From positions 186,001-250,000 of the forward strand of contig LGRX02035483.1 of NCBI GenBank assembly GCA_001247695.2: a stretch of DNA of 64,000 nucleotides, in the 5' to 3' direction. Numbering within the stretch: position 1 is the first letter of the stretch; every line of letters starts with the position of its first letter. This document shows, in pieces, positions 17,797 through 64,000 of the stretch. The stretch comes from Cymbomonas tetramitiformis (lineage: Eukaryota; Chlorophyta; Pyramimonadophyceae; Pyramimonadales; Pyramimonadaceae). The translations under genes were made by a program, and so were the position numbers. The notes under the pieces are model-generated. The model was not told the origin of the DNA. It searched no databases and worked only from the letters and a program-made list of their open reading frames with translations.

Positions 17797-17959
17797 TAGG
17801 ACGCATCGCGATCGCGTAAGTATTTCCATATTGCGTCACGCTCAGCGTGTCGATGATGCGACAGATATCGACGGACCGTAGCGGGTCTCGTTAACAGTCT
17901 GCATATCTGAGAGTTGGATCGTGTGTGCTGAATGCAGCTCTGTACAGCCCTCTTCTGAT

Positions 17960-20900
17960 ATGGTCAACAACAATACGAAATACCTCCCTGGTAACTGCCG
18001 ATCAAAGGGCTTCGTTTCGGGCAAACGCGTGATCGGACCTTTCATATTCGATATGGGACTTTTATGCCCGACACATTGCTCTTCCTCCGCTCTCATCCTG
18101 GGACTTTTTAGGGAACGATTGAAGCACTCGGATGCGAGACGTTCGGCAAGTGTCAAGCAGGTGCTGCACGTGCTTTTCCGCATGGTGAAGAAATGGTCCA
18201 ACGCGGTGGACGACGCCAACAGAGACGACATCGAAGAGAAGGACATGCCGGAGATTGTAATCAAATTTTTGCCCAAGAAGCACGTCACCTTTGTTGAGAA
18301 GTTGACGGACGAGGAGCTGTTTGAGGCGGTGATGCAATCGGGAAATGCAGAGTGGCTGGAGAATTACGACATTTTGCAACACATGGCAATTTTCTTCGTA
18401 ATGAAGACGGATGGCTCGAACGGTCAATCGGAAGAGACGTACGACGATGCAGATGACGATCGTGCTTCGCCATTCCCGGAGTTTGTGAACAACGTTCTGA
18501 TCGATATATACCAAGAGAATATGAAACGATTTGAGGGGACCTACAATGCTCATCTGAAAGGCACTAACAAGCAGGGGCTTCTCACGGCCAAAAAAATGCT
18601 CTCGGAGTTTCATGATCTGGCGGAAAGTTATCTCGACACCAGTGGCAACCGCTTGGATAGCGAACATTGTATCGACTTGTCGTATGTGCCCATGACGTCC
18701 GAAAGCATGTACAGAGTGTTCCAGTCGTTTCTGACGGGTCATAAACGAGTCTACACCACCGAGCGTGTGTGCGACGCCCACGTCACCCTCGAGAGTTTGT
18801 TGACGCCGAGTCAATCGTTCCGTGAAAAGATGACACAGTGTAAGGAGCGCTACGATGACATCGACTGGGAGCGTTTGTTGAAGTCCGGCGATTCGGGTCA
18901 AAGCTTCTTTTGGAACTTGAACGCGCCGTTCGTGCTTTCTTTGAACGAGTCCGACTTCACGGCCGTCGCTTGGGAGCACAGCGTTCAGCCGTTCTTTAAA
19001 TGGGAGAGAGGTGCCGCGGTCGAAGACTTTTTCGAACTGGAGGCGGCCGACGCTGATGACGACGACGAGGACCCGGGCGATGTCGAAAACGAGGAGGAAG
19101 GGGAGCAGGAACAGGACGAGGATTGCGACATCCACGGTGAAGCCTTTGAGCGAGACGACGCGCATGCGATCGAGGAGGAGTTGAGGAAAGCGTGCGAGAA
19201 GGCTTTTGAGTCCGAGGAGGAAGATGGCGATACGATCGAGGGCTCTGCAGAAACAAATCGGTTTATGCTGACCTCGAGAGCAAACATGAGCAAAAGGGCT
19301 TACGCGCATCTGATCGCGAATGCAGGGACCGGAGGCGCGGCCTCTAAGCGCAGAAGAGTCGCATCAAACGGAGCCGTCGACGCTCCTCGTCTCACCGGGA
19401 CTGTGGAAGGGGGGGTCGTCGGTGAAGGCGGTCACATATCCTTCGGCGTCTTTGACCCCGAGGGCATAATCGGAGAATGCATCAAAAAGCAGCGGGAGCT
19501 AGGAGTACCGTGCGCGCGAAGCGGTTTGTTCCTCGCGAGGATCGTCATGGAGAAGTACTGGATGAATCTTTCCAATCAAACCAAGCAGCTACCTGATGCG
19601 CAGCGGAGATCCGTTTGCCAGCACAAAAGTCAATCTCTACTGAACACTCTCTTCATGTGCGTGATGTGTCCCAGAACTACCGGGTTGCGGTTGACCTTCC
19701 CCATGTCGGATGCGTTGGCCACAGCTTTGAAGCCTTTGCAGGACGCGCTGGACGAAGCGAAGTACAAGTCCGGTAGAGGTCGTAAGACGCTGCAGATAAC
19801 GGGGCTACCGTACAATCACGCGAACATGTCGATCGGCATGCATTACGTGGCAGACTGGTGGGCTTATTTGGACAAAGCGCTTCACATGGAATGCCTTCAT
19901 TACGTGGGAGCCATGCTCCATCTGTGTTTCACTTCCGTGTACGCGACACCATTCGACGAATACCAACGCTTGCCCCATGTGTGGATGTCCGGGCTTCATT
20001 CGGTGGGGAAATCTTTTGTGGTTCTGAACGTCGCGGACGTGTCGTTGCCTGAGTGCATGGTGGAGAAGGTTCATCGAGAGACGCAGGGCGCGTGCTATAT
20101 CAGCACCATGAACAACACTGAGCAGCTCACCACCTACAAGACCAAGATCTACACGGAGACTCCTCTGATATCCATGGGTATAAGCAAGTACTCAAAAGAC
20201 ACCGATGCGAACGCGAATCTGAAGGCGCGACTGGTCGGAGAGGACGTGGCGCTGAAGCGCTCGTACAGAAACGAGAATACCAATTTGTACGAACTTGAAG
20301 TTTTAAATCCCAAAATTCGCGAGCAGATGACTTTCGTGATGAATCAACCGCTGTACGAGGTGATGCGCGAACAGTTTCGATGTTTAGAGCTGCTATTTTT
20401 CTACGTTGCGCGATGCAATGTTTGATCTCGGTCGCTCTGACTGGTTGCAGGTCGAGCCCAACGTTTTCACACGAGGGATTCCCACCAATCCCTCTCGTCT
20501 CAATCGAGTCGAGACAGACCTTTCTGCCGCCGCGCACGAGACACCTTGTCACAAAACGCTCGGTAACGCGTACTTCATATCGCCGGACGAGGACGATGAA
20601 AGCTTCGAGAAAACGGAGTTGCAAAACAGTCGACAAGCTTCCACCAAGGAGTTGGGCGTCTACGGCAACACGCAAGCGATTTGCGAGGTACGTCTTCGAG
20701 TGCGGAATGCTTCTCGCTGTCGCAACACGTTGGGGTACGCGGATAGTTTTGCACCGCCGAGTAACGACGCGCGGTGGGGCTGATCACGTTTCCTGGCCTG
20801 GTCGAGTGAGCAGGGAAATCTCCGATCGCGTCTATTCTATTTTGGAGCGCTGTATCAGGCTGCGGTCAGAATGCGGTTGTTGCGCGGCGTGGATATGCTC

Positions 20901-25019: not shown

Positions 25020-25470
25020 ATATCACCGTTTCCAGTAAAGACAATGTTAGATGATTCCAAAGAGAAAAAAAAAATAACATTTGATCTACAAATGCGCATG
25101 AAGGGAAGTGGCTACGACGAGGATACTGTTGATTCGAAATCGTAGACGGTTTTCTTGCACATCATTCGACGCATCTGGTATGGCGAGTGAGCATCTAACG
25201 TCGAAGGTAGATGTACAAATTTATGCCGATGCCTAGTATGCTGAGACGATAGGCTTGCGTCTAACACTCCCAAATAAGTTTGAGATTTCTGCAAAACGTA
25301 TACTTTTGTGTACCCGTATCATCCTAACCTTACACTTGAGACGAGTGATGCGCGACATCTGATTTAAACGCGTGACTGATATGCCTAATTGAGCAAACAG
25401 AACTCTCCAGTATAAATATGCGTGTGATCCGAACCGCGCAGATAGGTCGAACGCACTTCTGAACGCAGAT
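25020..25470. other. Intergenic gap
   Basis: 451 bases between two plus-strand genes. A 33-codon ATG frame at 25044-25145 reads like protein but is too short to judge. Minus-strand frames look like shadows of the next gene. No repeat copy or clear TATA box. Confidence 0.35.
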
Positions 25471-29650: not shown

Positions 29651-30502
29651 TCAAGGCACGCTGCAGTTCTGTAGATGCAGCGCAATTCTACGACGCGCGT
29701 ATCTTTCGACGTCCCGGCCAAGGCTATCGGTAATACTTTTTCCGCGTGAGAGCATGTTGGCGAAAGACAGCATGTAAATTCCGCAGTCGTGATGGTTGGA
29801 TTGTACCGGTAAATTCAATAAATTGTCGACATGTGAAATTTTCTGCAGAGAATAGGTCGTCGCATCGGTGGAACGAAGTATCAGAAGGTTTTGAAACACG
29901 CGTTTGAAGCACGTCTCGTCTTTCTCCGTGATCGTACGCATGGAGTCGTATATCGTTATTCGTAGCTGTTTAACGTCAAAACATACAGATATCCAATGAT
30001 TTTTCCTGATTAAAACTGGAAATGTGTAGAATGTAATTCGTTCGTCAAAAAATTCTTGAAGAGATCGACCTTGTTGTGTGTGTCGCGCGAGTTGTTTGGA
30101 TTTGAGTAAAGTCCACATGTGCGTGTCAGCAAAAAATGTTGTGAACATCTTTACGCGAGAACATTTGCAACGAAGAAGGCACATGTAGGCATTAACGATC
30201 GTATCGTCAATCCAGTTTCTTTTTAAAACACGTGAGAAATCTCCAACACTAAGCTCGTATTGGTTGATATCGAACACATTGTTGGATGCAAACTTCACCA
30301 CAACCACTGTGCGATCATGTGTGCACATACCCTTTAAACATCTTTTCAAACGCTCGTAACTGCGTCTTTCCGTAGCATTAAGCGTATCTCCCAGCAAATT
30401 TGCAATTTCGTCCGGTTCTATACACGTCAAGTCTATCACCTCTTGATCCGTGTTTTCTTGTGTGTGTGCACAGTGGTCTTGGTTCTGCCATCCATGTACC
30501 AT
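29651..30502 (-). CDS. Ulp1/SENP-type SUMO protease (C48) with SIM
   Basis: 283 residues from ATG 30502. The C-terminal 190 residues are a C48 peptidase: WIDDTIVNAY (entry motif), His169 in RKNHW, Asp186 in IYDSM, oxyanion Gln234 in PVQSN and Cys240 in HDCGIYML. Residues 22-26 read VIDLT, the textbook SUMO-interacting motif, followed by acidic residues. Together these argue for a deSUMOylating enzyme rather than a virion-maturation protease of the adenain kind. Probably alters host SUMO signalling, for example nuclear-body defences. A TATATATA box at 30615-30622 lies about 113 bases upstream. Confidence 0.93.
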   Translation of the reverse strand: MVHGWQNQDHCAHTQENTDQEVIDLTCIEPDEIANLLGDTLNATERRSYERLKRCLKGMCTHDRTVVVVKFASNNVFDINQYELSVGDFSRVLKRNWIDDTIVNAYMCLLRCKCSRVKMFTTFFADTHMWTLLKSKQLARHTQQGRSLQEFFDERITFYTFPVLIRKNHWISVCFDVKQLRITIYDSMRTITEKDETCFKRVFQNLLILRSTDATTYSLQKISHVDNLLNLPVQSNHHDCGIYMLSFANMLSRGKSITDSLGRDVERYARRRIALHLQNCSVP

Positions 30503-30687: not shown

Positions 30688-32012
30688 TCATACATCGATC
30701 TTTTTGCACTTCACGAGCATACCAATATTCAAAGTGTTCTGAAATTTTGATGTGATATCCTGTTTCGTGTGAAGGTAAAGAACGTTGATCTGATGTTTTA
30801 ATTTTTCCACGCGACACAGTTCAGACTCGTCGTAAATGCTTAGCTCTACTCTGTACGGCTCAAATTCTTGTGCGTCAAAAACAGCGACCAGATGATACAG
30901 GTGTGGATACCGTTTCTCCATACAGTGGCCCATATGATGTAAAATAAAGCTACATAATCGCAACATCGAGGAAGCTCTTTGACAGCGCTTATCGGCAACT
31001 ACATTGCGTATTTTGTGTATGGTGTCTTCGTAGTATTGAAAGGAGGCATCTTCGTCGTCTTCTTGTTTCGCAATCGAGTTGTAAAAGTTCGCTGTCGAGC
31101 ATGTGATTTCTGAAGGTAAGACGTAGTTGTGTAATTGTATTGTGGTCCACATTATCAAATCGATATACACTAGTTTGTCCGAAAGTAAAGCTTCATATTT
31201 AACAAAATCTATCTCCTGACTATCTGCGCGATTGCCGCTTTTCACACTTTTATAACGAAGAGAATTATCGACGAGAGGCTCAGGGTTACCACACAATCGA
31301 TAATATTGGGTCAGAAGTTTAACAGGATTCTCTTTGTCGGACGTGCTGTAAAAGGTATTCTCTTCTCGTTCCTGCTCGAGTTTCGCAGCCTCTTCTTCTT
31401 CCCGAGCCTTTTCTTCTTCCCGAGCCTTCTTCTTTTGAGCCTCTTCTTCTTCTCTCCTTCCTGAGCCTTTCTTCCTTTTCCGAGCCTCTTCTTCTCCCGA
31501 GCCTTTTCTTCTTCCCTGAGCCTTTTCTTCTTGTCGCCGTCGGACTTCCGCACTCTTCTTCTTCCCGAGCCTTTTCTCTTTTCCGAGCCTCTTCTTCTTC
31601 CCGAGCCTTTTTCTTCTTCCCGAGCCTTTTTCTTCTTCGCCGCCGGACTTCCACCTCTTCTTCTTCCCCGAGCCTCTTCTTCTTGTTGCCGCTGGACTTC
31701 CGCAGCCTCTTTTTTTTTGATTTTTAATTTTCTTCTTATTGTTGTTTGTAACGCTCTCAAGAGATAATCATACTTTCTTTCATTATTTGTAATGTTTTCA
31801 AATGTTTGTTTGTCTGCAATTGTATTTGAGGGTATACTGCGTCGTTTTACTGTTATATCGTCGTGCGCTTTTATTACATCATGAAGATCGGTTATCATAA
31901 TTTCTTTTGTCGGCGAAGGTTTTTGTTGTTTATATTTAGCGCTGAACGATCGTAACATTTCTATAATCTTATTTTGACCTGTTATAAAGTTTACAACATC
32001 TGTAGTATCCAT
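30688..32012 (-). CDS. Protein with long KAREEE-type repeat region, frame-disrupted
   Basis: ATG 32012 (MDTTDVVNFI) follows a TATATA box at 32046-32054. About 110 ordinary residues are followed by a low-complexity stretch (about 31380-31700) built from repeats of the CCCGAGCCTTTTCTTCTT type, translating to Lys/Ala/Arg/Glu runs. Then comes an ordinary C-terminal domain of about 215 residues ending at 30688. The repeat stretch changes frame at least twice, so no single frame joins both ends. The C-terminal frame has no ATG of its own and reads smoothly up into KAREEE repeats, which supports one gene. Cause: indels in the repeat, real or from sequencing. Function unknown; coiled coil likely. Confidence 0.6.
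31380..31700 (-). repeat. Degenerate 15-21-bp coding repeats (CGAGCC-TTCTTCTT)
   Basis: At least 15 copies of a CCGAGCC(T)TTTCTTCTTC unit in tandem, varying in length, within the gene at 30688-32012. Length differences that are not multiples of three cause the frame changes. Confidence 0.85.
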
Positions 32013-32131
32013 TTTTGGAAATATTCGTATCAAAGTATGTTGACTATTATATATACTCATCTCAACTGAAAATACGTAGTTATGATAAATTGCACTGTGG
32101 GTATGAGTGGATTCGTCTTTCCATCTTGCGT

Positions 32132-33103
32132 TCATTGCAGGACCGATGTAGAGTTTTGAGATTGTCTCCTATACTGACTCTCTTGCAAAAGATTGTGCGT
32201 CTTCATGAGTTCGGACATGAGACGAATGGCTCGATGATCCGGCTCTATCACAGTTTTCGTGTGCACGTGTAGATTGGTACGATGTTGTTTCTTTTTCTTC
32301 CCTTGCAAGATGGAGTCTTCAGCGGAATCTAATCCGTCAAAATCTTGTCTTGGTACTAGAAGTGCGTCTTCCATAGGTATTTCCTTTCGTTTCCACGCAC
32401 ACTCGCGAAGAGCTTCGATCTGAAAGACCAAATTTGATCTCATTTCATTTGCTTGGACACGTTCGTTATTGGAGTGATGCATTATATGATTCCAAATTGA
32501 TTTTCGGGACCATTTTCCATAATCCCAGTGAACTCGAATTTGCGTGTTGTAAAAGCGGTACACCATTTCGACCAATTGTTTATTCGATGTTCCGTTATTG
32601 TAATGAGTGTCGATCAGATTGAGCATTTCCTCGTAAACCGCACGCTGCTCCGATTCGTCGATGTTTGCGGTGGATGCAGCTTCATCGGCGGTATGTTTGT
32701 CGTATTTTTGCGAGTACATACAAGCTATGCAGCCTTCTTTTTCGAGCGCAATTGTAGTTTTGCACGCAGAAGATGGACAAGGAGAAATATCTCCTGGTGC
32801 TCGTACAGTTGTGTCGGCGTTTAAACAATCGGTAGATGTGTGCATTGGAGCATCAGAATCGGCGTCGTCAGACAGTATATCGCTTACAGGTGTTTTTGGG
32901 GGTTTTTTTTTCTTTGACATCGTGTTCACACTCTCTTCTTGACATTGCTCGTGTGTGGCGTACGAATTATCGGAGGAGTCCTCTGTCTTCGTGACGGTCT
33001 TATTTTTGGGCTTAGATGCATCGGATAAGCTTTCGTCCAGACCGCTCGATTGCACGAAGCTGTGAGATCTCGAGTTGGTCATCTTTTGAATTGCAATATT
33101 CAT
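32132..33103 (-). CDS. Unknown protein with CxxC and W...H-x3-H motifs
   Basis: 323 residues from ATG 33103. The first 120 residues are acidic/Ser rich and disordered, with a KKKKPPK nuclear-signal-like cluster. From residue 128 a compact domain begins with a CIAC pair, a MLNLIDTHY helix, a VYRFYN segment, then W-x3-SIWNHIMHH, suggesting a Cys/His metal site. The last 60 residues hold another KKKKQH cluster. The combination suggests a nuclear nucleic-acid-binding protein, perhaps a transcription factor. Family not recognised. Confidence 0.75.
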   Translation of the reverse strand: MNIAIQKMTNSRSHSFVQSSGLDESLSDASKPKNKTVTKTEDSSDNSYATHEQCQEESVNTMSKKKKPPKTPVSDILSDDADSDAPMHTSTDCLNADTTVRAPGDISPCPSSACKTTIALEKEGCIACMYSQKYDKHTADEAASTANIDESEQRAVYEEMLNLIDTHYNNGTSNKQLVEMVYRFYNTQIRVHWDYGKWSRKSIWNHIMHHSNNERVQANEMRSNLVFQIEALRECAWKRKEIPMEDALLVPRQDFDGLDSAEDSILQGKKKKQHRTNLHVHTKTVIEPDHRAIRLMSELMKTHNLLQESQYRRQSQNSTSVLQ

Positions 33104-36766: not shown

Positions 36767-37073
36767 CGGATCCTCCGAGACTTCCTTTGTGCAAACGGAT
36801 CGCGGTCAAGTCACAACACGTCTTAAGCACTGTTTTTTTACATTTGCCTTTGTTTGCATTCTACTTTTATAAAATCGACTCCGTAGCGTTGCGCGTAACT
36901 ACGCGAGAAGAATTTGACGTCGAAATTGGATGTTTCAGTGTTTGCGTTACGTGCAGACATACACGTTTCTCTGGTTTGCGTTAAGAGACAACGTGTAGGT
37001 ATAAATACACGTGCGCGTGTCGTATCCGTGAAATCTAAAGCTACACAGTCTCTATCTACAGAGCGTCTTCGTC
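36767..37073. promoter_or_regulatory. Divergent promoter gap
   Basis: 307 bases between starts at 36766 (minus) and 37074 (plus). TATAAATA at 37000-37007 lies 67 bases before ATG 37074; a TTTATAAAA sequence lies near 36864 for the other direction. No repeat copy. Confidence 0.5.
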
Positions 37074-43313: not shown

Positions 43314-43617
43314 CGGATGTCGTATGCCGTACAAAACATTCGTACGTCCAAACGTTTCTGCATACCGCGGATACTGCGTGCAAGTTCTGATCTTTGGAAT
43401 TCGTATAAATATATCTCACGGGCGTTGTTCTGGCGCTTCGTCAATATGTACACGACTTCTTGGGTACATACATATCGATTGTGAACTCGAAATTAAGCGA
43501 CGCATCGATAAGCCGCATCGACGATGCCTTGATAAGTAGCATCGAACTTGATTTTTGTATACCAAGCACCTTTTTGTCGATTCTTAACAAAACCTGTACC
43601 TTCTGGGTCGGTGAGCG
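43314..43617. other. Leader gap before the capsid protease
   Basis: 304 bases. Short plus-strand frames here lack ATG or credible composition. The stretch GCATCGATAAGCCGCATCGA, repeated in variant form at 43501-43550, is a local imperfect repeat. Confidence 0.35.
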
Positions 43618-44097
43618 ATGTCGCGCAACTTTACAGGCTGCATCTATTCCAACCCGCCGTTGACTAAGGTAGATGCGAGATTTACGGACCTCACAAAAGA
43701 CGAATTGAAAAGTATGAAATTGATTGGATTACCCATTAAAGTGGAACACGCCGGTCCTTGCAGAGGAGTAATAACAAACCAAAGTACGAACGAAGAAAAT
43801 GGATACACCACGATCACTTTCAATATTGACGAAGGATACGCTGGTGATGCTCTGATCAAATTGATCAAGTGCGGCAGTCTTCCGGATCTGAGTTTGTGCC
43901 ACAACCTATACGGCGATTCGGACATGTCCTTCGATGCGTGGGAGAAGGAACCGGTGGAAGTTAGCTTGTGCCTACAGGGAGCACGGGAGGGCACACACGT
44001 CTGCAAAGTAGAGTGCTCACGCGCCGCGTCCGTCGGCAAACAAAAATATTGCGCACAGGTAGACGACCCTGTGTTTACACGTAGCGGGGCAGTATAA
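43618..44097 (+). CDS. Herpesvirus-type capsid maturation protease (assemblin, S21-like)
   Basis: 159 residues from ATG 43618. The order and spacing of motifs match the herpesvirus assemblin fold: an N-terminal GCIYSN strand, LPIKVEH with His44 (family LP-x-x-x-x-H), an LSL segment with candidate nucleophile Ser92, and the signature V-x-L-C-x-x-G-x-R-x-GT (VSLCLQGAREGT, 115-126). In herpesviruses a His stands before V-x-L-C as third catalytic residue; here it is Glu114. The protein lacks the fused C-terminal scaffold; that role probably belongs to the next gene, 78 bases downstream. Expected to trim the scaffold during capsid maturation. Confidence 0.8.
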   Translation: MSRNFTGCIYSNPPLTKVDARFTDLTKDELKSMKLIGLPIKVEHAGPCRGVITNQSTNEENGYTTITFNIDEGYAGDALIKLIKCGSLPDLSLCHNLYGDSDMSFDAWEKEPVEVSLCLQGAREGTHVCKVECSRAASVGKQKYCAQVDDPVFTRSGAV

Positions 44098-44175
44098 ATA
44101 CCCTCGTCGCGTGCGACGTCACTAATTAAACTCGATTGATCTAATTTGACATATCTGCACACACAGATCGTAAAA

Positions 44176-45150
44176 ATGAGCGCCGGTGGCATGACCAACG
44201 ACGTACAGACGCTTCCTGCGGCGGACGACACAAGTGCGAGCCGTACCGTCGGTCAGCTCAAGACCGGAGAGGAACCTGGAGGTATCGTTACCACAAAAAG
44301 TCGAGATGCCTCAGGCAGGTTTGTACGGTTCGAAGACGACCCATCACAGGAAACTTCGCAGAACACTGTAACTCCTGGCAATTCTGCAGATGAGTTGATC
44401 AACATAGCAGATATGGTGGAAACTCTCGCTAAGGATATACCGGAAGATAAACGAAAGGATCTGGCGGGAGCTTTTGAGAAAATGACCAAAATGCAAATGG
44501 ATATCTACAAACAGCTCAACACCGTGACATCCACGAACAAAGAACTGAGGAGTATGTACGAAGATGTAAAGAAGGATAATAAAAGGATGTTGGACGAGCG
44601 TGAAGTGCAGTACGGCGACATGGCTTCGCAAATAACCGACGCGATCAACGATATCTATACGCAGTACGATGGTACGCCTATGGATGATAAATCCAAACGA
44701 GAGCTCAGCAAGCATCTCTGTGGTAACAACGAACTTGTCAAAACCTTACGCGGATTGCCAGCGGCAACTGTTGCGATGAGCGCCCAAAGGCAGCTTCTTG
44801 ACGTTGGTAACCAGCTTCGCGTCGCTACAAAATCGCACGCCGAAGCAAACGAGAGTGATCTCACCGCAAAACTTCGAGAATATCAGAAGGAACTTTCAAA
44901 CTTGCGCAGCGCCGGGGCCTCGCAACAAGTTATTCTCAACCAGGATCACACAAGCAACACACTCGCGAATCCAAATCGAATGGTGTCTGTTTCAGCGTCC
45001 GAGAGCAAATACAAGGAAGCGTACAGTCTGCTACCACCGGCATTGAGAGATGGTATAAAGAGCTACGACACCTCCTGCGGTATTGGGCGAATTGTTCCAG
45101 ACGATTTCAACGGAGACGTTGTAGGGTCCAAACGACAACGTATACAATAG
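44176..45150 (+). CDS. Coiled-coil scaffold-like protein
   Basis: 324 residues from ATG 44176 (MSAGGMTNDV). Almost entirely polar and helical, with long coiled coil in residues 85-150 and 205-245, disordered N- and C-termini and no Cys-rich or membrane part. The C-terminus has a basic GSKRQRIQ end. Its place right after the assemblin-like protease, on the same strand, is where a capsid scaffold is expected in tailed phages and herpesviruses. Function inferred from position and composition. Confidence 0.75.
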   Translation: MSAGGMTNDVQTLPAADDTSASRTVGQLKTGEEPGGIVTTKSRDASGRFVRFEDDPSQETSQNTVTPGNSADELINIADMVETLAKDIPEDKRKDLAGAFEKMTKMQMDIYKQLNTVTSTNKELRSMYEDVKKDNKRMLDEREVQYGDMASQITDAINDIYTQYDGTPMDDKSKRELSKHLCGNNELVKTLRGLPAATVAMSAQRQLLDVGNQLRVATKSHAEANESDLTAKLREYQKELSNLRSAGASQQVILNQDHTSNTLANPNRMVSVSASESKYKEAYSLLPPALRDGIKSYDTSCGIGRIVPDDFNGDVVGSKRQRIQ

Positions 45151-48061: not shown

Positions 48062-48196
48062 CATAATAACTTTTAATGCAGCGAACCGGAATTGTAGCTT
48101 CTTGAAATACGCATCGTTTGTATTGCACCAACACCGCGGCTAAGAAGAATCGAGTGGCCAAATTTGCTACAATCTGTAACTCTTTGGTGCGCACAC

Positions 48197-48904
48197 ATGC
48201 ATTGTATTACAGCCTTTCGTAAGGTCGTGAAAAAATGTTTGGTGTACGCCGCGCCCGATTACAGCAAACGACAAAGCCGCGAAACGCTGGAAAAACAAAT
48301 ATGTGTACACGACGCCAATTTGAGGTCTCTACAGCAGGACTTAAACAGAGCAAACGAGTCTTTGGCTCAGAGTGTGCAAATGAAGAATAGATCGATGGCG
48401 TGGATCAAAATGATGGAAAGGAAAAAGTTGGAGCGAAAGATAGTTCGCACTAACGGTTTACGACATGTATGCTCTGAAACTTTAGAAAAAATACAGCAGA
48501 GTGACGACATTTGCATGACAATGGAAGCACTGGATCATGCGAACCTGTTTGTGAAAGGAGCGTATAAAGACGTGGATACGAATTTGAAATCGATAGAGGA
48601 CTTAAATGAAAACATGGGCGACCTGCAAGGCGCGACAGACGAAATCCAAGAAGCGCTAAGTACGAGCGGCGACGGCGCGTACGGCGAAAGTGAGCTGCAG
48701 GATGAATTAGACGCGCTTTTTGACGCGTCGATTGACGACTGCAAACAAAAGACCGTGCACACACAAAAGTCTACGATGTCTTATTTTCCTAACATCGAGG
48801 CACCATCGACGCAATCCCTTTTGGACGAATCCGTACATGTTGTTGACGAAGAGCTTGCAATGCCTACTGCTCCGTCTACTGTGTTTGTATTGGAGGGGTC
48901 TTAA
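48197..48904 (+). CDS. ESCRT-III / Snf7 (CHMP)-family protein
   Basis: 235 residues from ATG 48197. Basic N-terminus, then a long helical hairpin. KNRSMAWIKMMERKKLERK (63-81) corresponds to the K-x-A-x-x-x-L-K-R-K-K-x-Y-E helix of Snf7. It continues through a regular helix with periodic Leu/Met to MGDLQGATDEIQEAL and ends with the ELQDELDAL pattern (166-174) typical of Snf7/CHMP4 alpha5. The C-terminal 60 residues are extended and may carry a Vps4- or Alix-type tail motif, not identified. Likely polymerises on membranes during nuclear egress, budding or host membrane repair. Confidence 0.85.
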   Translation: MHCITAFRKVVKKCLVYAAPDYSKRQSRETLEKQICVHDANLRSLQQDLNRANESLAQSVQMKNRSMAWIKMMERKKLERKIVRTNGLRHVCSETLEKIQQSDDICMTMEALDHANLFVKGAYKDVDTNLKSIEDLNENMGDLQGATDEIQEALSTSGDGAYGESELQDELDALFDASIDDCKQKTVHTQKSTMSYFPNIEAPSTQSLLDESVHVVDEELAMPTAPSTVFVLEGS

Positions 48905-56501: not shown

Positions 56502-57551
56502 TTATTGATACCGGACACCGTACGCAAAGTTGGAATATATGTAACCTTTTTGCACGTCGGTGGCCGTAAGCATGTTACCGAGCGTCTTTCGGTTGCTCAC
56601 GAACTCCTCCAAGGAGGGCAGTGACAGTTTTTCCAGGACTCCGTTTTCGAATACGAGAGGTCGTTCGTGAACAACCGGCTTCAAAATCTTGCCTTTTTGA
56701 ATTGCTTTCCACGGATCGAACATGCAAATCTCCGAATGAAACACCGAATCTTCGTTCTTTATCGAAGTGATACCATGTATGTTTGCAATATCGTATTCCT
56801 TAATGTATCGTTCAAGCATATAGAGAAAACCAAAGTCGCCATCGTAAGTAGATTGACGTCGATACTTATCGTTCTTCTGATCGTACCACCCATGCTCCAG
56901 GTGTTTGTTCCACTCGTCGTACTTTCCGTCGGTGCGCAACTCTTTGCCCAGCTCGTGCAGCAGAGATAAATTGTGCACGTTCGTCATGTCCACGAAATTG
57001 AAATCGCAAGTCAGTGTGAACTTCATCACGACACCGATCTTCCCGGCGGTGTAAGCGAAAGGGACACCTTTGTAGGAGTGCGCCGATGTTTTGTGTACGT
57101 CTTGTCCCTTGATGGCGAGCGACTCTGTAATCGACGACAGCGTAGAACTTGACAGCTTATTTTCGTCCCATTCGACAAGTGCGTGATCATCTCTCATCTT
57201 GCAACCGTTATCGGAGCGGTACATGCATTCACTATCCGCGATATAATGAATCGTGGTATCCGTCTTCAACCCGTAGCTTTTCGCCGTAGGAACAGCCCCA
57301 AAAAACATCCACGGTTTTGACTCTCGGTCGTGCATCCACTTCTGCACGATCATGTCGTCGGAATCCTCCTGCTTGAAAAGAGTGCGCGTTCCGGAATACA
57401 AACGGGTATCCTTGACAACTTTTATGCACGAAAAGCTCCTCGCTTCGTCGATGCCAATCCACGTATATTCGTCCGGGTTTAAATCCGCGGTCGTCCAGCT
57501 TTCGTCGTTGGACAAAGGCATGTAATGCAACGTTTCATAGTTTACACTCAT
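56502..57551 (-). CDS. Paralogue A of a tandem gene pair, 349 aa
   Basis: ATG 57551. Shares its whole layout with the next gene upstream (57716-58741). Both have a central D-D-x-I-V-Q-x-W segment, a G-V-P-F-A-Y segment, an E-W-x-K or W-M-D-K block before W-Y-D, an Y-R-R block, an I-x-x-x-H-G-I/V segment, F-D-P and a final L-P-x-L-x-E-F-V. Soluble, no signal peptide, no known motif. Probably a virion or host-interacting protein duplicated in this lineage. Confidence 0.85.
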   Translation of the reverse strand: MSVNYETLHYMPLSNDESWTTADLNPDEYTWIGIDEARSFSCIKVVKDTRLYSGTRTLFKQEDSDDMIVQKWMHDRESKPWMFFGAVPTAKSYGLKTDTTIHYIADSECMYRSDNGCKMRDDHALVEWDENKLSSSTLSSITESLAIKGQDVHKTSAHSYKGVPFAYTAGKIGVVMKFTLTCDFNFVDMTNVHNLSLLHELGKELRTDGKYDEWNKHLEHGWYDQKNDKYRRQSTYDGDFGFLYMLERYIKEYDIANIHGITSIKNEDSVFHSEICMFDPWKAIQKGKILKPVVHERPLVFENGVLEKLSLPSLEEFVSNRKTLGNMLTATDVQKGYIYSNFAYGVRYQ

Positions 57552-57715
57552 CTTCGTGCGGCCCACAGAGCTCTTTGCGGCAACTTTGCGTTTGCTTAAT
57601 AGCTGCCCATTTTTATGTATTTATACAAAAAGTTCACTTGTTTACAAAGTCCGTTGCGCCGTGCATCAAACACACTTTCCCGACCGATTATGAGAAACCT
57701 CCAGGAGGCTTGAAA

Positions 57716-58741
57716 TCATTTGTCGTGAGAGTACAGAGCTGTGGAAAACGATCCTTTCTCTCTTTTGAGCGTACGTGACGCATTCGATCTGTCACCGACG
57801 AACTCGTCTAACGTCGGCAGTCCCATGCGTGCGTACTTCTCGCGCGATCTTTGATCGGCTCTCTGTATCAGAACTCCGGGGCCGATCGTGTTAGAAAGTA
57901 CGTGTTTATGAGGATCGAAAAGACACACGATTTTTTCTGCGTCGGAATGCTCTTTTTCTTCTGCGTAAATCACGCCGTGCACTTTTTCTATCGGTCCATC
58001 CTCTCGCGCCACGTACTTGTGAAGGATAGAAAGAAATGGGTCCATATTTGGCTTGACTGCGACGCGTCGATATTCGCCGTGTTCCTCGTCGTACCAATTT
58101 TTTCGAAGTTTGTCCATCCATTCGTACGACTCGTAACCTTTAAGATTCCACATTTTATTTGTTGGGCTCCAAATGGGACTCTCGCTCTCGTGCATAATAT
58201 CGCCGATTCTGTCCAACAGTCTCAGATTTTCTTTGTTTTCCATGTCGATCAACCGCAACCCGGAAGTGCCTACTTTGTGACTCATGATCGCGCCGTAGTT
58301 GCCTTCGTTGTACGCGAAAGGAACTCCTTTCTCATTTCGTATTGAGCAGGCGTTATCAAAAACTGCGCGCACGTCGGTTTTCTGGTAGCTAGGTAACTCG
58401 TTTACTGAAGCTCCGACCACAATATGAGAATCTTTCATGATATCCGATCTGCGCAACTTTCGCGAGTCGGTTATGAAATGTACCACTGGATTAGCGCTTA
58501 CGGTCGCGGGTCGTATCTGCTTAAGGCAAAGCATCTTTTTGCGCTCTATATAAGTGGCCCACGTTTGCACGATGACGTCGTCCGCGTCGTCGAAGTTGAC
58601 GATCGGTACGGTCCTGGCGTACAAAACGCCGCCGCCCGGTATCGTCTTGACGTGTAGCGGAAGAGGCAGACACACAAATTGTGATTCTTCGTCTTGTGGA
58701 TGTGATAGCCGTGCTGGGGACTCGTCTACAGAGTGAGACAT
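57716..58741 (-). CDS. Paralogue B of a tandem gene pair, 341 aa
   Basis: ATG 58741 (MSHSVDESPA). Same architecture as the gene at 56502-57551, with clear but low identity: DDVIVQTW, KGVPFAYNEG, WMDKLRKNWYDEE, YRRVAV, IEKVHGVI, LFDPHKH, LPTLDEFVGDRSN. The gap of 164 bases between the pair and the same strand suggest tandem duplication, an old one to judge by divergence. Confidence 0.85.
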   Translation of the reverse strand: MSHSVDESPARLSHPQDEESQFVCLPLPLHVKTIPGGGVLYARTVPIVNFDDADDVIVQTWATYIERKKMLCLKQIRPATVSANPVVHFITDSRKLRRSDIMKDSHIVVGASVNELPSYQKTDVRAVFDNACSIRNEKGVPFAYNEGNYGAIMSHKVGTSGLRLIDMENKENLRLLDRIGDIMHESESPIWSPTNKMWNLKGYESYEWMDKLRKNWYDEEHGEYRRVAVKPNMDPFLSILHKYVAREDGPIEKVHGVIYAEEKEHSDAEKIVCLFDPHKHVLSNTIGPGVLIQRADQRSREKYARMGLPTLDEFVGDRSNASRTLKREKGSFSTALYSHDK

Positions 58742-59133
58742 TCTAGACAAAACGGACTTTGTCCACCTAGACCGAATTTGGTTATGCTCGCTTAACCCGT
58801 CTACCAAGTCGCGGCTTGGTACTTATATACATCAACATTTCTTGGTCTTCTTGAAAAACGCTGGTCGTTCACGGAAGTTTATTCGACCGAGTTCCGTAGA
58901 TAGATCGCGTACTGGTTTGGCATCTCAACATATCAGAGCTGCGTGCACTCAAAAGCGCGAGCAAGCGTTTGAGTATATATATATATAGATAGGTAGATAT
59001 ATACGCAAGTGCGTAACCGCTCACTTCGATACGCTCATCTCAAGCGAGTGGGTGTTCAATCGGTATATATAGTGCCTCTTGGCGAAACCTGAGCGCGCCT
59101 GATTTTTCGGTATCTTAAAATACGGTTCTGACC
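58742..59133. promoter_or_regulatory. Divergent promoter gap with two TATA runs
   Basis: 392 bases. TATATATATATATA at 58974-58986 (about 240 bases before ATG 58741 on the other strand) and TATATATA at 59064-59071 (63-70 bases before ATG 59134). The first is followed by TAGATAGGTAGATATATA. Confidence 0.55.
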
Positions 59134-62100
59134 ATGCTGGATCTGTCTTTGTACGTGCTCTTCCCTACCGCGATGGTCATAGCTTCTATGTACACCTTCT
59201 TCTCCTTTGCTGTGGTGCATTATGTGTACGTGGATACTTACAAGCATTCCATACACAACGTTTCGTATCACGATTATCGAGGATACTTCGATCACTTGGT
59301 AGAAGCTCAGGGCCGAGAGCTGATCCAAAGCCTTACAAATTCGTCAATGTGGATATTCAACATATGGTACGACAGCCTGAAGCAGTTGCTGATCTACGCC
59401 ACGCAGCATCGATATGCCATTCTTTCTGTCGTTACGCTTTCGTTTCTCGCTCTCGTGATCAGTCATCAGGGTCACGTTATATTGGACAAGTTCAATCTTT
59501 TTTACGAAGACATTCACGACCTTTTCCTCTATCCGATCAAAGTAGGATTTCACGCGCTCGGTTTGCTGTACTCAGCTTTCGCGGGTTTCTATACCATGCT
59601 CATTATGGTGATGCGAAACGTCACATCCTTCTTCGCAAATCTTTTTTTAAAGGTGGACACCGATCTATTGTTGGAAGGCGTGGGTGCGATATGCACTATC
59701 GTCAGCGAGTGGTTGCGAGCTTTGCACAAGTGGATTGTCGTGGACGGGTTTATAGAAGGGTCTCCGGATTATCTTCGCGTGTGTCTCGCTCTGCAGCGAT
59801 TCATGTGGGTGTGCCGAGAGCTGTTGATACAGCCTTGTGACATGTTGCGACACTTCTGGGAGAGCGCGCTGACTCCCTTGGCGTACTACGAACCGACAAA
59901 CACGGAGGTGCGCCTTGGGGAGCACTACTTTCCGATGGCCGACAGCATGAGCGTATACGAGGCTTACAACAAGTGGTGCTACGTGCAAAATCTGACCGGA
60001 CCCGTGCGATACGACGAGTCCATGAGAGAGGTACTGGAGGTTTACACGCCGGAATTTTCGTACTGCGCCGCTTGTGACTACAACAACGACATTCGCCAGG
60101 ATTGCGTGCCTCACGCTTACAACGCACCGCTTGCGTTGAACGCCTTCTTTGTTGTTCTGTGTAAGTGGGTGCAACTTCCGGTGTACTACGTGCTGCGATC
60201 ACGAGCTGCCTTCGACACCGTCGCGAGTGCGTTGGGTATTCGCAAAATTCCTGACGTGCGCGAGCGCGGTACCTCGGACAGTACGATGCAGGAGTACTTT
60301 TTTACGGGGGGTCGTTCGGAGATGAAGTATAGCATATGCTGGAATTCCTACGTCGGCTACGACGGCGAGCATGAAAACGGGTTTCCCGTGGAGCCTTACT
60401 TGCATCATGCGCCTTGGCTTCTCTGCCCCGATTACGCCAGTTATTATCGCACCTTCGACATGGACGGTCTCACCACCTCCCAGCTGGATGTGCTGGGTTT
60501 CGGTTTTGATGCGCTCGACGAGTGGTACATGGAGATGGTGAACTACTTACAATATCTGATCGTTAAGCAAGCGTCCGATAAGGACGTCAAGTCCGCGTGC
60601 GGTGAGTTTTGGTCGGTTCACAAAACTTTCTACGACGAGGACACCAATACGTGCACCACCACCCCGCCCTCGGCGATGGGCTTCATCAAGCACCCGCTGC
60701 AGATCTTAGGTGGCACGGCGCGCATATGCGGACGCTTTGTTTCGTATCTGGACATATTTTTCCAGGCTTTGCGATCCGTGTGGGAAGGCCTTCTGACGGG
60801 ACAAAACGATAACAACGAGGACGACGTCACCGGACTCGTGCATCAGATGGTGGAAACTCCCAACACGATCGGCTGCCTGCACGGCGAAAACAGCGCTTAC
60901 GCGAGCACGAGCACCCAGGAATCTACATACTCGAACGCGCGGTACTACTGCGCCAAGGCGTACCTGGTCGATCAGTTGGAGCAATCGCTCCTCGGCGTGC
61001 CCGACCTGATTCGGTCCGTGAATTTGACAACCGAAGCCGACGTCGTGGAGTATGCTGTGAAGGTCGGGATGGGGAAGGTGCGCTTCGCTTATCGATTGTC
61101 GACGGTCGTTCTCTTCGGCCCTTACCAAGCTCCGCCCGATTCCCCCGGTTATCCAGCGCCCCCGAGTCCACCGCCTCAACCTCCACCTCCACCCAAGTGC
61201 CTCGTTCCGGTCACGAAGGCCACGAACGACGCGACGGACGCGACGATATACGGCCTCGGACTGGAGGCTTGGAACGCCTACGGATGCGGGTACGCGCAGG
61301 ACAATCCATCCGCGAACGTGATCGCGCACGATCGCAAGCGTGGGTCGAACACGACCTACAGGTTCGCGTACATCAACAAGCAATGGTCCTTCACGGAGAC
61401 TCCGAGCAATTTGACCGTTGATTGTTTCTTCGTTCCCGTCTACGGCGCGTACGGTAACGAGTCGTGGGCGACAAGTCTCTGCCCGGTGCCCGAGAACAGG
61501 CGAGGCGATGCTGACGCCGACATGTGCGTACTGTCCGGATATCCTTCGCCGAAAGACGCCGCGCACGTCGACACGACGAGTCTGCAAACCGTTCCCAACG
61601 TCTTTATGTTCAACACGGAAAATCAGGAGGATTGCTCCTGCGACGACCAGGCTTCTTCACCGGTATCGGAGGGCGCGCTCTACACCTGCCCATCATCCAA
61701 GTACTACGCGCCCACGGTTAAGCAGGGCTACGACACGCAACAAGCTACCGTGGTGTCCTACTTGGTCGACACGGACCACGACGCCGCAGACATGGACGAG
61801 AGTCTCGGATTTTACACTCGGGAAGGTAAAACCGACTATCCGTATCCGGTGTGCAGAGGGCTGCAAGTGAGTCTCCTGGACACGGAGGCGGGCAACGTGT
61901 CCTACGACTTCGCGATGAGCGGACGATGTCGCCTCGCGTCCGATCAGTACACGAATGGACTGGAGACGGAGGGTTACGGGCGCCAGGTGGAGTGCAGTCT
62001 GGTGGCCGTAACGGACATATCGAACGACACGTTGCGACAGGCCGCGTCCTTCATCATCTCCGACAACGCGCGCGTTATGCGACTGCCCGTGCGCGTAATA

Positions 62101-64000
62101 AGACGCTTCATCAACGGCACCTCGTCACGCGGGGATCTGACATACGAGAAGAGCATGCTGTCCCCGACCGTCGACTTGCTTGCGCAGGGTCCGTCTTGGA
62201 CGGCTCGCGTGGCCGAGCAGGTTTTCGATGGCAGCGTCAGCGACGAGGTTTCGCCCATTTGGAGCGCCTACAAGAGCGTCGGTGGCTTCGGTGCGGGAAT
62301 GCATCAACCGCTTTGCTCCTGCGACCCTTTCGAGTACGTCGCTCCAACGCTGGTCCGAAACGTCAAGCACTGCGCGCCAAGAAGATTCGAAAGCATTCCT
62401 CCTCCACCCACGCCTCCTCCCGCACCTTCCGCACCGCCTCCTCCCGCACCTTCCGCGCCGTCGGTGACTAACTCAACCGTGTGTCGCAGCCCAGGTGGAT
62501 ACATAATGGCGGGCTACGAGATGAGGTACCACGCCAAGGACATCTCTCCTGAAAACTGCGTGTGTAGGGAATCCGGGATGTCCCCCGTGGCAAGCTACAG
62601 CTCAACCGTGGAGGACACGTACTACTGCCCGGAAGAGTGCGACCACTCGTCGATTAGCGGCGGACCGACCTGCATCTGTCGCAGGCAAGATATCGAGTTC
62701 ATGGAGATAAAAGCAAACGGCAAGCGCAGCGTTTCCGTCGGAATCGAGGAAGCCAAGCAAAAATTGGTCCGCGTGCTGAACGAGGTTTCGTCCGATGTGG
62801 CGTCCGTCCACGCGGAGCACGTCGCATCGAACGAGACCTCGCAAAACTCCGATTTCGAATTTGCGTTCAGCTTCGATTTCGAGTCGGAGAAGGCGCGGTT
62901 CCCCACGCTCGAAAACATCTCCGACCCCGACTTCTGCTCGACCCACCTGGGCGAAGGATGGGACCTGCACGTCGAGCGCGACGGCAACTCGCAATCCCAG
63001 ATCGAAACGCGCGAGATGTTACAGGCCGTGGTGGACGAGCGGGTCAATGACTGGGTCATGGCGGCCAGTGGCATGGCGTTCATGGATGGTCACGCGCTGT
63101 GCGCGGATAGGTACAGAGTTGCACTGCCGCCTCGAGGACGACGTCACTACACCGGCAGCCTGCAATCGGGCGAGACGTCCCCCACCCGCAGCGTGCTCAA
63201 TCCGAGTCGCACTGCCTGGAGACTGGCGATCGCGCGAAACAAAGAGGACGCGGGAATGTACGACCAAACCGACGTAGAGTACGTCAACGCGGCTTTGTCG
63301 GACGCGCTTTACTCCGCGTCTTCCAGGAATCAAAAAACACCTTCGGATTGTGCCGTGGCCGACTCCTTGCTCAACAATATAAGAAACACGGTGATAATGT
63401 CCATGTTCGAAAAAAAAGACGGCGACTCCAAGTATCGATTGCGGTTCGACGCGAATGGGACGTGTTCCGTCGACGGGGAATACATGATTCGCGACCGCGG
63501 GTCGGCCTACGATCTCGCATGCGCAATCAGAGAGGACGACACGCCCGTTTACACGGCCGCGGATGCGTTAAACCGAAGATTTTCACATTCGAGTCTCGAC
63601 GGTTCGCACGAATACTCACAAGCGGAGGATTCCGCCTACGGCTTCATGCATCACATCGAACGCAAGCTACAACGAGTCAGTCTGCTAAATCAGACGGGGT
63701 ACGTGAAGACCGTCGGTCGTTGCGAACTCCCGCGCGCGTTTTCGGACTATTCCGACGTCTTTGTCTCTTCGGATGAAAACGCGCACGTGTGCAAAATGTA
63801 CGTGGATCAGACTTATCTCACCAGCGAGTTCCAGATTTCCGAACATCCAAAACGACGCTATTCCAGTGATGCTGGCCCTTTTCTCAGACGATACGCGCGC
63901 TCCGACGGTTACCGGATGTGCTCCAACAGCAGCGAATCGGACGTGCAAAGTCTCTGCCACGACGCGAATTTGTTGTCCGCCGAGCAGATGGCTCAGGCAG
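59134..64000 (+). CDS. Giant membrane glycoprotein-like protein, 3' end missing
   Basis: Open from ATG 59134 to the right edge, more than 1,620 codons without a stop. Residues 5-27 and about 85-108 are membrane segments, with further hydrophobic stretches to about 185 and near 345. A long ectodomain-like region follows with many cysteines and N-glycosylation sites. Two Pro-rich hinges (PPSPPPQPPPPP at about 61160-61195; PPPPTPPPAPSAPPPP at 62399-62460) separate Cys-rich modules. Such Pro-rich linkers are common in algal and protist extracellular proteins. A TATATATA box lies 63-70 bases upstream. Probably a major surface or tail/fibre-like protein; family unknown. Confidence 0.85.
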   Translation, partial: MLDLSLYVLFPTAMVIASMYTFFSFAVVHYVYVDTYKHSIHNVSYHDYRGYFDHLVEAQGRELIQSLTNSSMWIFNIWYDSLKQLLIYATQHRYAILSVVTLSFLALVISHQGHVILDKFNLFYEDIHDLFLYPIKVGFHALGLLYSAFAGFYTMLIMVMRNVTSFFANLFLKVDTDLLLEGVGAICTIVSEWLRALHKWIVVDGFIEGSPDYLRVCLALQRFMWVCRELLIQPCDMLRHFWESALTPLAYYEPTNTEVRLGEHYFPMADSMSVYEAYNKWCYVQNLTGPVRYDESMREVLEVYTPEFSYCAACDYNNDIRQDCVPHAYNAPLALNAFFVVLCKWVQLPVYYVLRSRAAFDTVASALGIRKIPDVRERGTSDSTMQEYFFTGGRSEMKYSICWNSYVGYDGEHENGFPVEPYLHHAPWLLCPDYASYYRTFDMDGLTTSQLDVLGFGFDALDEWYMEMVNYLQYLIVKQASDKDVKSACGEFWSVHKTFYDEDTNTCTTTPPSAMGFIKHPLQILGGTARICGRFVSYLDIFFQALRSVWEGLLTGQNDNNEDDVTGLVHQMVETPNTIGCLHGENSAYASTSTQESTYSNARYYCAKAYLVDQLEQSLLGVPDLIRSVNLTTEADVVEYAVKVGMGKVRFAYRLSTVVLFGPYQAPPDSPGYPAPPSPPPQPPPPPKCLVPVTKATNDATDATIYGLGLEAWNAYGCGYAQDNPSANVIAHDRKRGSNTTYRFAYINKQWSFTETPSNLTVDCFFVPVYGAYGNESWATSLCPVPENRRGDADADMCVLSGYPSPKDAAHVDTTSLQTVPNVFMFNTENQEDCSCDDQASSPVSEGALYTCPSSKYYAPTVKQGYDTQQATVVSYLVDTDHDAADMDESLGFYTREGKTDYPYPVCRGLQVSLLDTEAGNVSYDFAMSGRCRLASDQYTNGLETEGYGRQVECSLVAVTDISNDTLRQAASFIISDNARVMRLPVRVIRRFINGTSSRGDLTYEKSMLSPTVDLLAQGPSWTARVAEQVFDGSVSDEVSPIWSAYKSVGGFGAGMHQPLCSCDPFEYVAPTLVRNVKHCAPRRFESIPPPPTPPPAPSAPPPPAPSAPSVTNSTVCRSPGGYIMAGYEMRYHAKDISPENCVCRESGMSPVASYSSTVEDTYYCPEECDHSSISGGPTCICRRQDIEFMEIKANGKRSVSVGIEEAKQKLVRVLNEVSSDVASVHAEHVASNETSQNSDFEFAFSFDFESEKARFPTLENISDPDFCSTHLGEGWDLHVERDGNSQSQIETREMLQAVVDERVNDWVMAASGMAFMDGHALCADRYRVALPPRGRRHYTGSLQSGETSPTRSVLNPSRTAWRLAIARNKEDAGMYDQTDVEYVNAALSDALYSASSRNQKTPSDCAVADSLLNNIRNTVIMSMFEKKDGDSKYRLRFDANGTCSVDGEYMIRDRGSAYDLACAIREDDTPVYTAADALNRRFSHSSLDGSHEYSQAEDSAYGFMHHIERKLQRVSLLNQTGYVKTVGRCELPRAFSDYSDVFVSSDENAHVCKMYVDQTYLTSEFQISEHPKRRYSSDAGPFLRRYARSDGYRMCSNSSESDVQSLCHDANLLSAEQMAQA

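Follow-up and report, generated by a model that had tools for sequence, protein, structure and literature searches.

A probable nested unit of capsid protease and scaffold, with a predicted Ser-His-Glu triad of the phage type, in a mirusvirus-like element of Cymbomonas tetramitiformis

A stretch of 64,000 nucleotides from the green alga Cymbomonas tetramitiformis (contig LGRX02035483.1, positions 186,001 to 250,000; hereafter the window) was analyzed with emphasis on positions 43618-45150, which probably constitute a nested protease-scaffold unit similar to herpesvirus UL26/UL26.5, carried by a mirusvirus-like element and encoding a capsid maturation protease with a phage-type Ser-His-Glu triad. 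The support comes from sequence, namely the open reading frames (ORFs), the conserved His, Ser and Glu, an oxyanion-type loop, a V-x-A-S pattern and a conserved tail in the scaffold, the fused models of relatives and an enriched TATA motif. An enzyme of the assemblin or prohead-protease type beside a scaffold gene, as proposed in an earlier note on this DNA, is thus supported.

The protease ORF (43618-44097, forward strand) starts with ATG and encodes 159 residues, of which residues 1-147 (43618-44058) are the part common to relatives. His44, the predicted general base (codon 43747-43749), lies in GLPIKVEH; Ser92, the predicted nucleophile (43891-43893), in LPDLSLCHN; and Glu114, the predicted third triad residue (43957-43959), in KEPVEVSLCLQGAREGTH. 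Residues V115-T126 (43960-43995) carry G-x-R-x-G-T and correspond, in the register of pseudorabies assemblin (PMC4498786), to the oxyanion-hole loop region. These residues and the herpesvirus-like loop were found in the order and setting that the earlier note had described.

Relatives were found with a query in which protease and scaffold were fused. This query revealed nine homologues, seven with the protease part and two (P0011 and P0015) with the scaffold alone. Protease and scaffold are on one chain in the seven (P0009, P0010, P0012, P0013, P0014, P0016 and P0017), which represent six loci, P0009 and P0010 apparently being two models of one locus; P0012, a protein of 479 residues from a metagenome contig, aligned at 43% over 99% of the query. 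Invariance was counted over seven rows, one for each distinct protease-bearing locus, window included. His44, Ser92 and Glu114 were kept in all seven, and likewise in an alignment of eight untrimmed rows. Ser92 is the sole invariant Ser of the family, while C8, E43, D90, C94, H95 and E111 are further invariant Cys, Asp, Glu or His positions. The stretch VSLCxxG-x-R-x-GTH was retained in five of the seven loci, and wherever the model has the loop (5/5 loci) the second Arg is kept and the first Arg position is Ala or Gly. Since the homologues retain the start, the His, Ser and Glu and, in most models, the loop, the resemblance goes beyond chance, an explanation that was dropped in view of the conserved protease family.

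The models P0009, P0013 and P0014 skip the loop, with a junction directly after the triad Glu, where the window reads GAA|GTTAGC. Because the E-V-S codons look like a splice donor, the loop-less junction may be a repeated prediction error; alternatively, it may be a real alternative splice.

Searches with the protease by itself gave no significant match in Pfam and PHROGs (one PHROG at E 0.12) or in the PDB by sequence (one row, E 1.4) or by profile. The phage tblastn gave no match, scans of viral contigs revealed no relative, and a protein search with the 159-residue ORF, admitting targets of up to 1.75 times the query length, returned 12 candidates, none significant; this length limit is probably why the longer relatives escaped it. 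No published report on this protease was found in literature searches covering mirusvirus/Mirusviricota proteases, the HK97 catalytic triad and Cymbomonas mirusviruses.

The origin of the Glu was approached by comparison with Peptidase S78, using HK97 gp4 and 11 of the 40 tblastn matches listed (811 records matched). In the 12 aligned S78 proteases the invariant columns include the His, the Ser, the Glu and a Ser two residues past the Glu. The profile of the window family matched the profile of these 12 proteins with a score of 26.75 (E 0.0019, probability 14.5%, 96 columns), which none of 200 column shuffles reached (best 21.7) and which compares with 15.1 for the reversed profile. The alignment places H44, S92 and E114 on HK97 gp4 H65, S114 and E141. 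The window family thus has the S78 His, Ser and Glu-x-Ser motif, as well as the residue order of the procapsid protease superfamily (S21, S78 and gp21-like), with His, Ser and a third residue downstream. The Glu of S78 proteases is a catalytic residue. On the other hand, the Pfam model PF04586 (Peptidase S78) was unmatched by the window protein and six relatives, whereas HK97 gp4 matches it at 4.9e-30, and pairwise BLAST of HK97 gp4 against P0010 was not significant (best E 2.1). The earlier note had presented the Glu as an unusual catalytic variant. Its conservation is borne out by the seven loci, but it is not unprecedented: all 12 S78 proteases have Glu there, so that the departure is from herpesviruses only, and a wholly new triad was dropped as an explanation.

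Herpesvirus proteases have an unusual Ser-His-His triad and strictly conserve two consecutive loop arginines (PMC4498786). The window family differs in both respects, with Glu in the third triad position and only the second Arg retained. According to its title, PDB entry 1ied is an existing crystal structure of cytomegalovirus protease with H157E, a Glu at the same place. In pseudorabies assemblin His128 is followed by the loop residues Gly135, Arg136, Arg137, Gly139 and Thr140 (PMC4498786). With the register anchored on the third triad residue, His128 falls on E114 and the loop on G121, A122, R123, G125 and T126, so that four of the five residues (Gly135, Arg137, Gly139 and Thr140) are shared at equal spacing and Arg136 is replaced by Ala. 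Based on the S78 profile alignment and this loop register, the Glu represents the S78 state and the loop the herpesvirus state. The module thus looks like a mosaic of phage (Glu) and herpesvirus (loop, site and layout) features.

Structure models were of low confidence, with pLDDT 51.5 from the eight-row alignment and 33.8 from the single sequence. When the low-confidence eight-row model was submitted to Foldseek, the first six PDB rows were T4 gp21 and the pseudorabies, Epstein-Barr and cytomegalovirus proteases, and 15 of the 50 viral rows listed (29 of them named) were called prohead, head-maturation or capsid-maturation proteases; the best viral row (E 9.2e-4) was nameless. VIA-align with the same poorly supported model ranked aminomethyltransferases and MCE domains first.

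The scaffold ORF (44176-45150, forward strand, 324 residues from an ATG) lies in the same frame as the protease ORF. Its core is probably a coiled coil; in the relatives the scaffold gave coiled-coil-type Pfam matches, all under the curated cut-offs. Near its C-terminus, where the earlier note had suggested looking for a cleavage site, V-S-A|S (44989-45000) is a candidate maturation (M) site. V-x-A-S was present in all eight distinct rows (P0010 was set aside as a duplicate locus and P0011 as a model in which the part preceding the Ala is missing). It lies within a linker that varies elsewhere, and the position two before the Val is occupied by V, I, M or L. The pattern is that of the herpesvirus M-site: in pseudorabies the M-site is presumably VQA-S and the release (R) site most likely YLQA-T (PMC4498786). 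Cleavage at the M-site releases 37 residues there, compared with 50 predicted for the window. These 50 residues form a conserved tail (44998-45147) ending in KRQRIQ, with KR-x-R in 10/10 rows, duplicates included. The tail is predicted to bind the capsid protein, and its basic end to be nuclear-import-like. I-V-K-M|S (44167-44181), which includes the scaffold start Met, is a candidate R-site, a weak guess from the pattern [IV][IV][KR]M-S-A seen at five distinct loci.

Two in-frame stops, TAA (44095) and TGA (44137), stand between the ORFs. A candidate GT-AG intron of 108 nucleotides (44059-44166, forward strand, phase 0) spans both, and its excision (GT...CAG) would join codon 147 to position 44167 and fuse protease and scaffold in frame. 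P0010, a model of a related element, has the identical junction CAQ|IVKM. The helicase gene of the window also has GT...CAG introns, of about 91 and 126 nucleotides, and P0005 was seen by eye to continue across both; P0005, again judged by eye, did not support a third gap of 201 nucleotides in the helicase model, so that such gene models do err. Mirusvirus introns have been described as peaking near 80 bp and as enriched in virion genes (PMC12768974).

UL26 and UL26.5 are in-frame overlapping genes with a common 3' end (PMC4498786). A comparable arrangement in the window requires the putative splice together with a nested promoter, and the sequence holds a candidate for the latter. One TATAAATA box (43404-43411, forward strand), a candidate promoter of the protease unit, lies 214 nucleotides ahead of the protease ATG, and another (44093-44100, forward strand), a candidate scaffold-only promoter, overlaps the protease stop 83 nucleotides ahead of the scaffold ATG. 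The window has 10 TATAAATA boxes against 1.34 expected, a number reached in none of 100 shuffles. Eight of the 10 are no more than 260 nucleotides upstream of a same-strand ATG from a hand-chosen set of 44 gene-like ORFs (background 8.9%), compared with 16 of 45 for the shorter TATAAA by the same criterion. The box likely represents a class of viral promoters, and the element has a gene for a TATA-binding protein of its own. The sites are at 25411, 28136, 34911, 36694 (reverse strand), 37000, 40760, 43404, 44093, 50570 and 57625 (reverse strand); CACGTG directly follows the box at 37000 and 50570.

The earlier note had seen a stand-alone protease with a separate scaffold gene. The adjacent scaffold gene is there, but the fused models of seven relatives, from six loci, and the GT-AG stretch through which the window ORFs can be joined make stand-alone doubtful, being probably wrong or only half of the output. 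Two separate genes are a less likely arrangement: the protease would end at 44097, enter the procapsid by another contact, T4 gp21 and gp22 likewise having separate genes, and cut the scaffold in trans. The two stops between the ORFs fit this arrangement, as do the scaffold's own TATA box and ATG, the adjacent but separate T4 genes 21 and 22, and P0011, which is the closest EukProt model to the window scaffold (99% identity) and contains the scaffold only. Genes examined in such elements were, moreover, described without introns (PMC10675990). It is at odds with the seven fused models, among them the 479-residue metagenome protein, with the C-terminal 12 residues of the window's protease ORF, which have no evident counterpart in the relatives, and with the common frame of ORFs that a phase-0 GT-AG stretch can join. 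Introns are argued against by the description of the heliorhodopsin genes in such elements, and of the genes next to them, as apparently intronless (PMC10675990). The R-site proposal is weak, since P0016 and P0017 lack the [IV][IV][KR]M-S-A pattern.

The stops could also be disabling mutations in a decaying integrated copy that makes no product. Many such elements are short fragments (PMC10675990); however, both ORFs are intact, the active-site, loop and maturation-site residues are conserved, and the 108-nucleotide gap ends in a splice-like manner at a codon boundary of the P0010 model, from another locus, so that decay is unlikely. A catalytically dead relative keeping only the fold, as a decoy or structural protein, is very improbable. 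It would fit the Ala or Gly in place of the first oxyanion Arg, given that both arginines also provide positive charge at that site (PMC4498786), the departure from the herpesvirus His at the third position and the poor structure model. Against it stand the invariance of Ser, His and Glu, the occurrence of this Glu in S78 proteases and the first Arg of pseudorabies assemblin, which hydrogen-bonds through its backbone N-H (PMC4498786).

For the nested unit we infer that the intron is spliced, that the promoters are used, that the enzyme is active, that both cleavages occur and that the tail binds the capsid protein, and the following course can be proposed. The protease, probably a member of the procapsid-protease superfamily, would use Ser92, His44 and Glu114 for catalysis, with the G-x-R-x-G-T loop holding the oxyanion. 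Transcription from the upstream TATA box, followed by excision of the 108-nucleotide intron, would yield a protease-scaffold precursor that the scaffold part carries into the procapsid, while the internal TATA box, within the protease gene, would give a second transcript for the scaffold alone. After assembly the protease would cut V-x-A|S close to the C-terminal end of the scaffold, which would detach scaffold from capsid protein and let DNA enter, and it would probably release itself at the I-V-K-M|S junction. More speculatively, the unit may be a surviving intermediate between phages and herpesviruses, combining the phage triad with the herpesvirus loop, V-x-A|S site and nested gene. Its output would then be set by splicing, an excised intron giving the fusion, a kept intron the free protease and the internal TATA box the free scaffold, and a splice at the Glu junction would produce a loop-less, inactive fusion acting as a brake. 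This extended proposal is tentative.

A phage Glu together with a herpesvirus loop, site and layout in a protease of a eukaryotic virus would date the Glu-to-His change after the UL26-like arrangement, and the window protease offers a concrete enzyme for probing that change. The Cymbomonas mirusvirus-like elements also gain a candidate scaffold and a candidate maturation site, which makes particle assembly testable. The module as a whole is of greater interest than the triad variant by itself.

The window appears to be a virus-derived, mirusvirus-like element resident in the C. tetramitiformis genome. Residues 480-834 of its helicase-like protein (17921-20425) matched CYMTET_10820 of this alga at 100% over 94% of the region; the other seven of the eight matches comprised six further proteins of C. 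tetramitiformis, at 51-76% identity, and a EukProt protein at 59%. Over the whole 1325 residues CYMTET_10820 and the window differ at only seven single residues, so that the two come from one and the same element or from nearly identical copies. The idea of a herpesvirus of fish or molluscs as the source was dropped, as the helicase matches the alga. Other products are a trypsin-like protease (778-2904), a core histone, a TATA-binding protein, a Ulp1-type protease, an exonuclease and a Snf7 protein. Histone, TATA-binding protein and trypsin-like proteases are among the mirusvirus core functions (PMC10132985), and the window thus has this accessory set of Mirusviricota. Mirusvirus-like elements of this alga carry HK97-fold capsid proteins, portal genes and, more sporadically, TATA-binding protein (PMC10675990, in the main text of which the word protease is absent). 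Pfam recognised no HK97-fold major capsid protein, portal, terminase or triplex protein in 47 window ORFs, with a library not shown to hold mirusvirus models, and no heliorhodopsin was recognised in the window. Mirusvirus-like is thus our own assignment, since no capsid protein, portal or terminase was recognised, and the placement in Duplodnaviria made in the earlier note holds as a probable duplodnavirus context.

Several further genes were observed. The Ulp1/C48 SUMO-protease-like protein (29651-30502, reverse strand, Pfam 1.4e-18) is a second protease beside the trypsin-like one. The Snf7/ESCRT-III family protein (48164-48904, forward strand, Pfam E 5.9e-11) is possibly involved in budding or nuclear egress. 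A proline-rich-linker, high-GC ORF of at least 1627 residues (59119-64000, forward strand) runs off the window and resembles a large surface protein, with no Pfam match. Two adjacent reverse-strand ORFs (56502-57566 and 57716-58807), also without a Pfam match, look alike by eye (GVPFAY and similar stretches), probably through gene duplication. A Lys/Arg/Glu-rich low-complexity protein (31311-32135, reverse strand) lies over a tandem-repeat array (31387-31691).

Among known systems, the window resembles mirusviruses, which have a capsid maturation protease (PMC10132985), and the Cymbomonas CHeCMEs (PMC10675990), the latter from the same alga, in its eukaryotic duplodnavirus-type context, and it has histone, TATA-binding protein and trypsin genes as mirusviruses do. 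With T4 gp21 and SPN3US gp245 the protease shares an acidic third residue, T4 gp21 being also the first Foldseek row and its gene adjoining the scaffold gene. However, the third residue of these enzymes is Asp (H77/S153/D178 in gp245, PMC5694885), they cleave after Glu (PMC5694885) and not at A|S, and in T4 separate genes encode gp21 and the scaffold gp22. HK97 gp4 shares with the window protease Ser-His-Glu, the segment E-[VI]-S-[VL]-C that contains the Glu, a compact enzyme and a His-to-Ser spacing of 49 (48 in the window), but none of the 12 aligned S78 proteins has the G-x-R-x-G-T loop, no scaffold gene is shown beside gp4 in the HK97 record and pairwise similarity is insignificant. Herpesvirus UL26/UL26.5 (assemblin, MEROPS S21) shares the order of His, Ser and third residue, the loop at equal spacing, the protease before the scaffold, an M-site-like V-x-A|S that would free a C-terminal tail and a candidate scaffold-only start within the unit. 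The window unit differs from it in the Glu, in the Ala or Gly at the first loop Arg, in a shorter protease (about 147 residues versus about 224) and His-to-Ser spacing (48 versus 66), in a scaffold start Met at the putative release site and in the probable intron between the two parts.
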